Shown here piece after piece: positions 34,794 through 39,749 of a DNA stretch of 41,696 bases. A model generated the notes under the pieces. That model was not told where the DNA came from. It ran no database searches and was given only the letters and a program-made list of their open reading frames with translations. The DNA comes from an uncultured Alphaproteobacteria bacterium (GTDB lineage Bacteria > Pseudomonadota > Alphaproteobacteria > RF32 > CAG-239): assembly GCA_944391705.1 (NCBI GenBank), contig CALXUN010000014.1, positions 1 through 41,696 of the forward strand, in the 5' to 3' direction. The number at the start of each line of letters is the position of its first letter. Positions within the stretch are counted from its first letter, which is position 1. The translations under genes were made by a program, and so were the position numbers.

Positions 34794-35908
34794 AAAATAT
34801 TATCATTATTTTGGGAACATGGCCGGAAGCCATCAAACTTGCACCGATTATTCTTGAATTAAAAAATAATGGAAAATATCATGTGACGGTTTTAAATACC
34901 GAACAACAAAAAGAGTTGTCAAATCAAACATTGAAATTTTTTGATATTAATGCTGACATTACTCTTAATATTATGCAGCCCAATCAATCTTTGAGCGATT
35001 TACAAGCCCGAATGCTTACAAAGCTTAACACAATTTTTGACGAAACAACTTATGATGCAGCAATTGTACAAGGTGACACCATGTCGGTTTTTTGTGGCGC
35101 TTTAGCTGCTTTTTATCATAAAGTTCCAGTTTTTCATGTGGAAGCCGGGCTGCGCTCTTTTGATTTATTTGAACCATTTCCGGAAGAGGCTATCCGCCAG
35201 ATGACCAGTCGAATCTGTCATTTTCACTTTGCACCAACCGAAAAAGCAAAACAAAATCTGCTACAGGAAGGGGTCAAGAGTAATAATGTTCTGGTAACAG
35301 GTAATACCGTTATTGATGCCTTAAACTGTATTCCGAAAATTGTTCAACGGCAGGCACTGCAAAATTTAGCAATCAAAGGAATCGAAATAAACGATAAACT
35401 GGTTTTGGTAACTGTTCACCGGCGTGAAAACCACGGCACACGCTTAGATAATATTTTGATTGCATTAGCAGATTTAGCCGTTAAATTTTCAGATCATACT
35501 TTTATTGTTCCGGTACATCCAAACCCAAATGTGCGGGAAAAGGTGGTTGATGGTCTTAAAAAATTTGCTAACGTTATTTTAACCGAACCCTTGGATTATC
35601 CCGAGTTAGTTTCTTTGATGAAAAACGCCAAACTTATTCTAACTGACAGCGGAGGGATACAAGAAGAGGCTCCGACATTTGGCACACCGGTTTTGGTTAT
35701 GCGTTATGAAACCGAAAGACAGGAAGGCATTGAGGCCGGATTTTCTAAATTGGTCGGCGCTGATATTGATAAAATCACGAAAGAAACAGCTTTGGTTTTA
35801 TCAAAAGATAAAGTTAAAATAAGAATTTCCAGTGTTACAAATCCATACGGCGATGGAAATGCCGCAAAAAGAATTGTTGAGGTTTTAGATGAGTTTTATA
35901 AAGAGTAA
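34790..35908 (+). CDS. wecB: UDP-N-acetylglucosamine 2-epimerase
   Basis: A 372-aa GT-B-fold enzyme converting UDP-GlcNAc to UDP-ManNAc. Family motifs: [18 protein letters not shown] (usually GTRPE), [71 protein letters not shown]. The R-to-W change in the first motif is worth noting, as the Arg normally contacts the substrate. A ManNAc-type sugar in the glycan is implied, although no wecC dehydrogenase follows. It overlaps licD by 20 nt. Confidence 0.9.
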
Positions 35909-36821
35909 TATATTTAAAATAGAAAAAGATAAATATGCTAAACAATTTTATCTTTTTGGATATAAAATTTTTAAATTAAAAAAGCATTATGACTTTTGTT
36001 TTTTTGAAGATTTATATAAAATTCAAACAGATATAACAAAACTACCAAAAGCTTCCGGCATATTACGCGATATTCAGCTGGCAAATTTGTTGATTTTAAA
36101 AGAAATTTCCCGAATATGTAAAGAACATAATTTACAATATTGGCTTACTTTTGGTAGCTTATTGGGAGCTGTTCGCCATCATGGTTTTATCCCTTGGGAT
36201 GATGATATTGATATTGCAATGCTGCGTGAAGATTATGATAAATTTATTGAAATTTTTAATTTTCATACTAACCTTGATTTATATGCAAAAATCCATTTTA
36301 ATAACAAATACAACCACATTAAAGTGCAGCATAAAAATATTCCTTTTCTCTTTGTTGATATCATTGCGCATGATTTTTATCCTGCAGAAATTTCAACCGT
36401 TAAGGAACGTTGTCTGTTAACTAAAAAAATTAAAGAAATTCAAGAAAAAATATATGTTCCTCAAAGCGATAAACTATCAGAAGAACAAAAATACAATTTA
36501 TTAAAAGAACTCCGTAAAAACTTTTTACATAACAGTCAAACAACATCGGCTGTTAAATATCCAGATGTTTATATAGGTCTTGATTTTGGATGTAATATTT
36601 CTTCTTCAATTTTTTATGCTTATCATGATATTTTTCCACTTAAAAAAGTTTCTTTTGAAAACATAGACGCTTTTCTTCCCAATAATCCTGATACAATTTT
36701 AACTTACATGTACCGTGATTATATGACTTTCCCTTCAAAATTATATCAGGGACATACACGTATTTCCAATTTATCGTTAACAGAAATCATGGATATAAAA
36801 AACTTTTTAAGAAAAGGATAA
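35889..36821 (+). CDS. licD: LicD-family phosphotransferase
   Basis: A 310-aa protein with the LicD/fukutin-type nucleotidyltransferase fold: [34 protein letters not shown] carries the GSLLGAxRH and DDDxD metal motifs; [12 protein letters not shown] residues follow near the end. LicD proteins transfer phosphocholine or related phospho-amines from CDP-linked donors to sugars. The first 30 residues ([20 protein letters not shown]) resemble the short head found before many glycan-locus enzymes. The next gene provides a likely donor-making nucleotidyltransferase, so the two should act in one pathway. Confidence 0.85.
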
Positions 36822-38628: not shown

Positions 38629-39749
38629 TTAATGTATGTATTTGCGGTGGCGGAAATTTAGCACATGCTTTTGCGGGAATGCTTTCTCTAAATCCGTATG
38701 TATCTAAACTTACCGTTTTAACTCGGCGACCAAAAAAATGGAATCATAAATTAAAAATATTAAAAGATGCTAATGAGATAATAAGCGGTATTTTTCATGT
38801 TACTGATGATTTTTCTGTTCTGACACAAGCTGATGTTATTATTTTAACTCTTCCTTGCCATGTTCGCTATTTATATTTATTAAAAATAAAACAATATGTT
38901 TCCGCAAAAACATTATTATTAGCGGCTCCTAGTATTGGTGGCATTAATTTTGTTTTTGAGAATATTTTTCCCGACAATCCTTTTGTGTGTTGCCAAAGAG
39001 TACCTTATATATGCCGAATTATCGAATATGGTAACAGCGTTAAAGTGGATATAAAGAAATCGATTGATATATATTATTCTAATAATTTATTACCTAAACA
39101 TAAAAAGATTGTTGCGAATATCTTAAATATGCAACTTTCAGAAATCTCAAGTTTTTGGCCTTTATTGTTATCCAATTCAAATCCAATTATACATATTGCT
39201 AGATTATGTGAAATTTTAACAACGCATTACCCTTGCTTAACGCCACCTTTATTTTATGAAGAATGGGGAGATTTTGCTTCTAAATTAGCTGTTGATATGG
39301 ATGCTGAATTAGGAAAAGTTATGAAAAAATTGAATGTAACTGAATATAAGAGTCTCTTGCGTCATTACGAAGTATCTGATTATAAGAATCTCACTAAAAA
39401 AATCAGATCTATTCCTGCTTTTTCAAATATTATGACTCCAATGCAGAAGATAAATAATTTTTTTATTTTAGACAACCAATCTCGTTATTTAATAGAGGAT
39501 TTAATTTTAGGAACTTGTGTTATTAAGCAGATTGCTTCTTTATTAAAAATAACTACACCTTTTATAGATTATGCAATTTCTCTCATGCAACGTGTTTTAA
39601 ATAAAAATTTGATAAACAAGCAAGGGATATTAGATTTATGTGAATGGGAATCTTGTCTTGAAAAAGGATATTACGATATCGTTTTTAATAAAAGCATTAT
39701 CAAAATCCTAAACTCTATTACTCCAGCAAGCCGGAAGTGCGGAAGCTGA
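38625..39749 (+). CDS. Opine-dehydrogenase-like NAD(P)-dependent enzyme
   Basis: A 374-aa protein of the octopine/nopaline dehydrogenase superfamily: Rossmann start VCICGGGNLAHAFAGML (GxGxxA type), DVIILTLPCHVRYLYL for the cofactor domain, then a helical domain with NSNPIIHIARLCEI holding the catalytic-type His, and PLFYEEW. Such enzymes reductively join an amino group to a 2-oxo acid. Its 4-nt overlap with the LicC/PLP fusion implies a shared pathway acting on an amine intermediate. The gene is the most AT-rich of the cluster. Its 3' end overlaps radC on the opposite strand by 32 nt. Confidence 0.75.
   Translation: MINVCICGGGNLAHAFAGMLSLNPYVSKLTVLTRRPKKWNHKLKILKDANEIISGIFHVTDDFSVLTQADVIILTLPCHVRYLYLLKIKQYVSAKTLLLAAPSIGGINFVFENIFPDNPFVCCQRVPYICRIIEYGNSVKVDIKKSIDIYYSNNLLPKHKKIVANILNMQLSEISSFWPLLLSNSNPIIHIARLCEILTTHYPCLTPPLFYEEWGDFASKLAVDMDAELGKVMKKLNVTEYKSLLRHYEVSDYKNLTKKIRSIPAFSNIMTPMQKINNFFILDNQSRYLIEDLILGTCVIKQIASLLKITTPFIDYAISLMQRVLNKNLINKQGILDLCEWESCLEKGYYDIVFNKSIIKILNSITPASRKCGS

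Follow-up and report, generated by a model that had tools for sequence, protein, structure and literature searches.

A candidate gene cassette for decorating a surface glycan with opine-type ethanolamine phosphate in an uncultured alphaproteobacterium

Introduction

LicD proteins transfer phospho-amines from cytidine diphosphate (CDP) donors, and opine dehydrogenases (ODHs) join an amine to a 2-oxo acid. Here, we analyse a gene cassette in which members of these two families flank a fusion protein with a nucleotidyltransferase-like domain and a pyridoxal phosphate (PLP) domain. The cassette (licD, the fusion gene and odh) lies in a 41,696-nucleotide stretch of DNA, contig CALXUN010000014.1 of an uncultured alphaproteobacterium, hereafter the window. 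We consider it probable that the three genes form one pathway decorating a surface glycan with N-carboxyalkylated ethanolamine phosphate. The cassette would vary the known CDP-amine and LicD mode of decoration in two respects: the amine would be made de novo, and it would pass through an opine step.

The Lic1 phosphocholine system (LicC/LicD) relies on a CDP-activated amine and on transfer by LicD. However, Lic1 takes up choline, whereas the cassette is predicted to make its amine de novo and to tailor it to an opine. PntC-AEPT (6pd1, 6pd2) also joins a LicC-like cytidylyltransferase to a PLP enzyme, and LicD-like transferases occur in its neighbourhoods. Unlike in the cassette fusion, the PLP part is a class V 2-aminoethylphosphonate transaminase and the substrate is a phosphonate. 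FrbH, of the FR-900098 pathway, has a decarboxylase half. Excerpts of PMC6697681 describe transfer of a cytidylyl group by FrbH to L-2-amino-4-phosphonobutyrate. We liken FrbH to the cassette fusion by description, not sequence; the two-domain idea is shared. In contrast to FrbH, which acts on a phosphonate for an antibiotic, the cassette has a glycan setting, ODH and LicD partners, and a host genome with no match to phosphoenolpyruvate (PEP) mutase.

The closest characterised relatives of the PLP domain, sharing its fold, are the Sulfurospirillum serine-O-phosphate decarboxylase SMUL_1544 and CobD. These stand alone, in cobamide synthesis by annotation, whereas the cassette domain is fused. 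Cj1436 of the Campylobacter jejuni capsule pathway, likened by description only, makes ethanolamine phosphate from serine phosphate and likewise serves a surface glycan; its product amidates glucuronic acid (parts of PMC12409886), as opposed to the CDP transfer proposed for the cassette. Octopine dehydrogenase, CENDH and staphylopine-type dehydrogenases share the fold of the window ODH, whose conserved H190, R287 and D292 may correspond to residues of theirs. Known opine dehydrogenases act on amino acids, whereas the window enzyme is predicted to use an amino-alcohol phosphate or the CDP form of one.

Results

Cassette layout and protein families

Open reading frame (ORF) calling in the window identified licD, the fusion gene and odh as three co-directional neighbours (35889-39749). 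The ORFs come from a simple longest-ORF script and start positions may be off. A 4-nt gap separates licD from the fusion gene, which overlaps odh by 4 nt. The features are as follows.

35889..36821, + strand: licD, LicD family phosphotransferase of 310 aa (PF04991), predicted to move a CDP-activated amine phosphate onto glycan
36826..38628, + strand: whole fusion gene, 600 aa plus stop
36826..37560, + strand: cytidylyltransferase-like domain at the N-terminus of the fusion (residues 1-245, approximately); NTP_transf_3/NTP_transferase, with PntC and LicC-type PDB relatives
37567..38625, + strand: C-terminal PLP domain of the fusion, about residues 248-600; putative CobD/SMUL_1544-like phospho-amino-acid decarboxylase
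38625..39749, + strand: odh, opine-dehydrogenase-family enzyme of 374 aa (PF02317), predicted to N-carboxyalkylate the amine

LicD matches the whole PF04991 domain (E 1.1e-35, profile positions 1-227 of 227), and fukutin-related protein is its sole PDB match (E 1.8e-6). The N-terminus of the fusion matches NTP_transf_3 in Pfam (E 3e-10); PDB relatives include PntC (6pd1, E 3e-15) and a LicC-type cytidine triphosphate (CTP):phosphocholine cytidylyltransferase (1jyk, E 7e-8). The C-terminus matches Aminotran_1_2 (E 5e-26). CobD is the best-scoring named NCBIfam family for the PLP domain (TIGR01140, 178.3 bits) and is also among the nearest folds, while HisC (TIGR01141) gives 159.6 bits; both scores are under the curated cut-offs, 290.55 and 276.55, respectively. 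This is the FrbH-type architecture, with a LicC/PntC-like nucleoside triphosphate (NTP) transferase ahead of a CobD-like PLP domain in one protein. An alignment of 31 fusions (the window and 30 of the 80 loci described below) shows no variation at R13, K23, E106 and D108 in the nucleotidyltransferase or at K457 in the PLP domain. On motif reading, K23 is the putative counterpart of a lysine that FrbH needs for activity (excerpts of PMC6697681).

The ODH matches PF02317 (E 1.5e-25), and both the helical and the Rossmann-type domain are present. The structure model has a pLDDT of 91.7, and the nine best PDB matches in Foldseek are all opine dehydrogenases. Across an alignment of 39 sequences (the window ODH and 38 separate, rather than fused, ODH proteins), N186, P187, H190, R287 and D292 do not vary. 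We take the catalytic residues of Pecten octopine dehydrogenase to be H212, R324 and D329. The RYLxED motif of the window ODH aligns with 3c7a; phmmer pairs Pecten His212 with a threonine, and the equivalence of H190 is a reading only. The initial annotation had called a LicD protein, a LicC-like/CobD-HisC-like fusion and an octopine-dehydrogenase-like enzyme, encoded consecutively at the end of a glycan operon. The ORFs and Pfam agree on the arrangement; Pfam, NCBIfam and PDB searches agree on the families.

The PLP domain groups with a serine phosphate decarboxylase

The PLP tree covers 22 of the 80 loci, one of which (L005) falls under the length limit, and E. coli HisC is the sole confirmed HisC. 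In this tree, the window domain falls in a clade with the Sulfurospirillum serine-O-phosphate decarboxylase (support 100/100), apart from E. coli HisC. CobD joins next, with only moderate support (89/71). The best PDB sequence match is SMUL_1544. Firm clustering with true HisC, the outcome that the initial annotation had set against its own prediction, did not occur.

Gene fusions and neighbourhoods support a link between the three enzymes

We compared 80 loci, the best 80 of 539 full-length or nearly full-length fusion relatives in named genomes (49-79% identity). Selection was by similarity to the window, and the frequencies therefore do not represent the whole family. Loci L016 and L018 are excluded from counts of 80. 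Unless noted, a gene counts as present at any position and in either orientation within up to 8 kb of flanking sequence. Family labels come from profiles built on these loci, with Pfam applied to selected examples only.

Four loci (L059, L064, L069 and L087) encode in-frame NTP-PLP-ODH proteins of 943-946 aa, with NTP at about 1-248, PLP at about 250-606 and ODH at about 610-940. ODH-LicD fusions are found at L070 (922 aa), L089 (599 aa) and L094 (597 aa). The Pfam check agreed on the fused domains for L059 and L094. Record titles place the organisms in Bacteroidales (Muribaculaceae, Prevotellaceae, Bacteroidales). Identity is 83-98% within the NTP-PLP-ODH group and 58-85% within the ODH-LicD group; either fusion type may have arisen just once.

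An ODH is present at 46 of the 80 loci, fused or directly adjacent in 44 and two genes away in 2. Of the 44, 42 are on the strand of the fusion gene, with L028 and L033 the opposite cases. L085 has a second ODH copy six genes off. LicD is present at 49/80 loci (38 on the same strand), and ODH and LicD are both found at 30/80. The window order, LicD-fusion-ODH, is kept in 7/80 other loci (ODH being fused in 4) and hence is more than chance.

Reductase and transferase seem interchangeable

An ornithine-cyclodeaminase/mu-crystallin-type (OCD) protein is found at 17/80 loci, adjacent to the fusion gene and on its strand in 16. PF02423 was present in the three proteins checked. PDB relatives are pyrroline-2-carboxylate reductase, mu-crystallin and thiomorpholine-carboxylate dehydrogenase. 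Members of the ODH and OCD families form or cleave an opine secondary amine or reduce an imine. ODH and OCD occur together at 0/80 loci. The chance of zero overlap under independent draws is 2e-8, a descriptive figure only because the loci are related. L024, with the closest relative of the window fusion (79% identity, within the best 80 of 539), carries the OCD version. A row on a plasmid of Nitratireductor sp. OM-1 (L119) comprises genes for a ParB_N protein, a PLP enzyme, cysteine synthase, an ODH and IucA/IucC. Staphyloferrin B clusters have the OCD-family SbnB at the place where Nitratireductor shows ODH.

The transferase also varies. PF04464-like glycerophosphotransferases are found by profile at 18/80 loci, one of them (L024:2206-3474) with no Pfam match, and a CDP-alcohol phosphatidyltransferase (PF01066) at 1/80. 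LicD, PF04464-like or PF01066 proteins are found at 66/80 loci, on the same strand at 53/80 and within two genes at 46/80. LicD seems replaceable by other transferases of CDP-donor families. The PF01066 case, L032 from the endosymbiont of Escarpia laminata, consists of ODH, fusion and CDP-alcohol phosphatidyltransferase; the product is possibly a phospholipid with an opine head group. Gloeothece has the fusion, an S-adenosylmethionine (SAM) methyltransferase and LicD. Here, the methyltransferase is perhaps a third way of treating the nitrogen. Where flanks of at least 4 kb are available on both sides (58/80 loci), ODH or OCD is present at 45, a transferase at 52 and both at 41. The nucleotidyltransferase is constant, the second member acts on an amine and the last belongs to a CDP-donor family, which points to a CDP-amine.

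Candidate sources of the amino acid

In Providencia rettgeri (L098) the order is ODH, fusion, a 129-aa free-serine-kinase homologue, flippase-like pieces and LicD. The kinase homologue matches SerK (5x0b, E 2e-16) and SbnI (E 1e-5). In Fusobacterium vincentii (L016) a DUF1015 protein follows the fusion and has the same DGHHR motif; it matches SerK only at E 0.012. Our literature search found no paper joining DUF1015 with a serine kinase. On contig C8 of the window genome, unlinked to the cassette, L104:958-1641 encodes a 227-aa protein with a DGHHR motif. This protein has no Pfam or PDB match, so we do not claim it as a serine kinase.

The host genome has no match to the PEP mutase model TIGR02320, which argues against a phosphonate setting. 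A metagenome-assembled genome (MAG) of Treponema (L095) has the fusion beside a CTP_transf_like-PEP mutase protein, likely a phosphonate version of the module. A related split fusion lies beside aepX in Bradyrhizobium, and a related fusion near a Dxr gene in Priestia. Together with the gene fusions, the adjacency, and the replacement of ODH and of LicD, the serine kinase homologue of P. rettgeri backs the earlier suggestion that the three enzymes are linked as one pathway.

Distribution of the fusion

By titles and tree labels, fusion loci occur in Alphaproteobacteria, Providencia rettgeri, Gastranaerophilales, Elusimicrobiaceae, Bacteroidales and other Bacteroidota, Fibrobacter, Akkermansia, Lachnospiraceae and Treponema. 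The fusion is found in nine phyla, with an ODH or OCD partner in seven of these, and many of the genomes are gut MAGs by title. Among 55 relatives, the full-length fusion is in the window's own genome and in none of the 54 others; some match at E 1e-3 occurs in 43/55, partial in all but the own genome. At E 1e-25 the fusion is found in 3/385 genomes of the class. In one of these (G146, locus L013) it is split, its domains in one frame parted by stop codons. A window-like ODH was found at E 1e-12 in 1/398 genomes of the phylum, the window's own, and phage records gave no ODH match.

Full-length fusions were also found by tblastn on plasmid-collection records, some chromosome-sized, of Fusobacterium vincentii (48%), Gloeothece, Rahnella, Erwinia, Priestia and Pseudonocardia. 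Carriers with ODH include Providencia rettgeri RB151 and Parabacteroides distasonis NM39_I3 (L036), and Bacteroides cellulosilyticus DSM 14838 (L050) carries OCD. Fusobacterium vincentii SB055 (L016) has the fusion, LicD and DUF1015, and neither reductase. Three IMG/VR viral contigs (L120, L121 and L122; 321, 122 and 22 kb) hold full-length fusion genes of 45-46% identity; in L121 the fusion gene is followed by one gene that matches LicD weakly and another that resembles a SAM methyltransferase. In Prevotella sp. F0039 (L020, 8001-10491) a PLP-then-NTP arrangement of low identity, the reverse of the fusion order, lies beside LicD.

Genomic setting

The cassette starts at the 3' end of wecB, licD beginning inside its final 20 nt. 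The upstream genes run in the same direction.

34790..35908, + strand: wecB, UDP-GlcNAc 2-epimerase (TIGR00236, 439.6 bits)
32219..34793, + strand: three glycosyltransferase genes (PF00535, PF01501, PF04488), of the GT2, GT8 and DXD-sugar-binding families by Pfam

The downstream gene, radC by our reading of the sequence, is convergent with odh, and the 3' ends overlap by 32 nt (39718-39749). G+C content is 26.5% for licD, 31.8% for the fusion gene and 29.6% for odh. The figures are 43.9% for radC, 43.5% for map and 42.5% for the first 28 kb of the window. The two nearer glycosyltransferase genes (31.5% and 33.7%) and wecB (37.3%) are also low, so the entire operon, not the cassette alone, looks foreign. 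In a sister species (G003) the DNA match to the window wecB stops at 35889, and a 318-aa gene read as glycosyltransferase-like lies between wecB and radC. The neighbours of radC differ again in two further genomes (G001 and G002), and licD, fusion and odh are absent from the radC-side stretches of all three (about 1.5 kb of flank each). In this genus, radC borders a variable site. PADLOC gave no match to a defence system. Predicted promoters (61 vs 48.7 in shuffles, standard deviation 7.2) and terminators (16 vs 13.0, standard deviation 3.3) are near or somewhat above shuffled counts, and an Rfam scan gave one tRNA.

Discussion

In the pathway that we propose, the PLP domain would form ethanolamine phosphate by decarboxylating a phospho-amino acid, for which O-phospho-L-serine is the likeliest candidate. 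Coupling to CTP by the N-terminal domain would then give CDP-ethanolamine. Cytidylylation could precede decarboxylation; either order is conceivable because FrbH is reported to cytidylylate the amino acid, while Cj1436 decarboxylates serine phosphate. Next, the ODH would join the primary amine to a 2-oxo acid (pyruvate is the default assumption) and reduce the imine to a CDP-N-(1-carboxyethyl)ethanolamine-like donor. Finally, LicD would move the phospho-opine onto the glycan. We infer all of these reactions, with serine as amino acid and pyruvate as oxo acid, from gene order, families, fusions, co-occurrence, folds and residues.

If the oxo acid is pyruvate, the product would be N-[(R)-1-carboxyethyl]ethanolamine phosphate. 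We take this compound to belong to Proteus, presumably serotype O14. The initial annotation pointed to carboxyethylated phosphoethanolamine on some Proteus O-antigens, and this is in print: PMC9630907 names the compound among constituents of the P. mirabilis O-polysaccharides and Klebsiella capsules shown in one figure, and its glossary also includes it. In a search of an open literature library, we found no paper naming genes for it, nor one combining an opine dehydrogenase with LicD. No Proteus is among the 12 listed of 21 plasmid records matching the P. rettgeri fusion and hence these give no link to a serotyped Proteus strain. The Proteus mirabilis H63 record contains an ODH only distantly related to that of the window (21%), and neither the fusion nor LicD gave a match within 6 kb of it. 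E. coli genomes gave no match to the ODH-fusion-kinase DNA of P. rettgeri.

The same pathway could use another phospho-amino acid: phosphothreonine, yielding 1-amino-2-propanol phosphate, or a phosphonate, yielding a CMP-aminoalkylphosphonate as in FrbH. The CobD score (178 bits) and fold are in keeping with this, as are the phosphonate genes near related fusions (PEP mutase in Treponema, aepX by the split version in Bradyrhizobium, Dxr in Priestia) and the lack of a phosphoserine route in host searches for SerC, SerB and DUF1015. However, the PLP domain is nearer to the serine-phosphate decarboxylase than to CobD, the host has no PEP mutase match, and a serine kinase homologue accompanies the fusion in P. 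rettgeri, perhaps also in F. vincentii. We regard a different amino acid as unlikely, though worth keeping in view. It is improbable that the PLP domain is instead a HisC- or Cj1437-like transaminase aminating a phospho-keto compound, for instance towards CDP-serinol, with the ODH acting on that amine: the tree sets it with the decarboxylase, apart from E. coli HisC, and its best sequence match is the decarboxylase SMUL_1544.

Alternatively, the ODH could run in reverse, cleaving opines oxidatively, or make an amino-acid opine for a sugar, so that its link to the fusion is indirect. Opine-type carboxyethyl amino acids do occur on Providencia glycans (passages of PMC10609480), and the Nitratireductor ODH lies between cysteine synthase and IucA/IucC genes. 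Against this, the window cassette has no cysteine-synthase gene, and in relatives ODH is fused directly to the NTP-PLP protein and to LicD; we consider such a role about as improbable as the transaminase. It is very unlikely that the cassette genes share a variable glycan locus without any functional relation. The edge of the locus does vary within the genus, and loci of this kind undergo gene shuffling, but the gene fusions, the 44/80 loci with fused or adjacent ODH, and the mutual exclusion of ODH and OCD speak against it.

Several observations weigh against a phosphoserine-based opine pathway as set out above. The serine-phosphate decarboxylase sits on a long branch and its placement is unsure. 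3ftb, the top VIA match and a close PDB relative, is titled histidinol-phosphate aminotransferase (HisC). DGHHR-motif kinase candidates lie near the fusion at only 2/82 loci (P. rettgeri, and F. vincentii outside the 80). The host genome has no match to SerC (two models), SerB or DUF1015, and its best match to the SerK homologue is an unconvincing E 0.0185. At 17/80 loci, some on short contigs, neither ODH nor OCD is found; hence, tailoring is optional or located elsewhere. At 11 of the 49 loci with LicD, it lies solely on the opposite strand; LicD is also frequent at glycan loci generally, so that finding it together with the fusion is weak evidence by itself. Relatives of a Fibrobacter ODH are held by 46 plasmid records, largely rhizobial, and the three ODH plasmid stretches examined have no fusion and no LicD. 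The main text of PMC5560731, covering 60 Proteus O-antigen clusters including O14, does not contain 'licD' or 'carboxyethyl'. Confidence is also lowered by family counts that rest largely on our own profiles, and by low G+C content that is not special to the cassette.

More broadly, there is about an even chance that the loci represent a modular 'CDP-opine' pathway. De novo CDP-ethanolamine from phosphoserine would be capped by either of two unrelated reductase families and passed to any of three unrelated CDP-donor transferases, placing opine head groups on glycans and perhaps, in a single case, on lipids. Replacement of ODH by OCD would suggest a function for that OCD/mu-crystallin-type branch. 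The cassette provides a complete candidate gene set, in named organisms, for a described sugar decoration. If the proposal is true, a charged glycan decoration would be made without uptake of choline or ethanolamine, and activated donors would include a new class in which CDP carries an opine.

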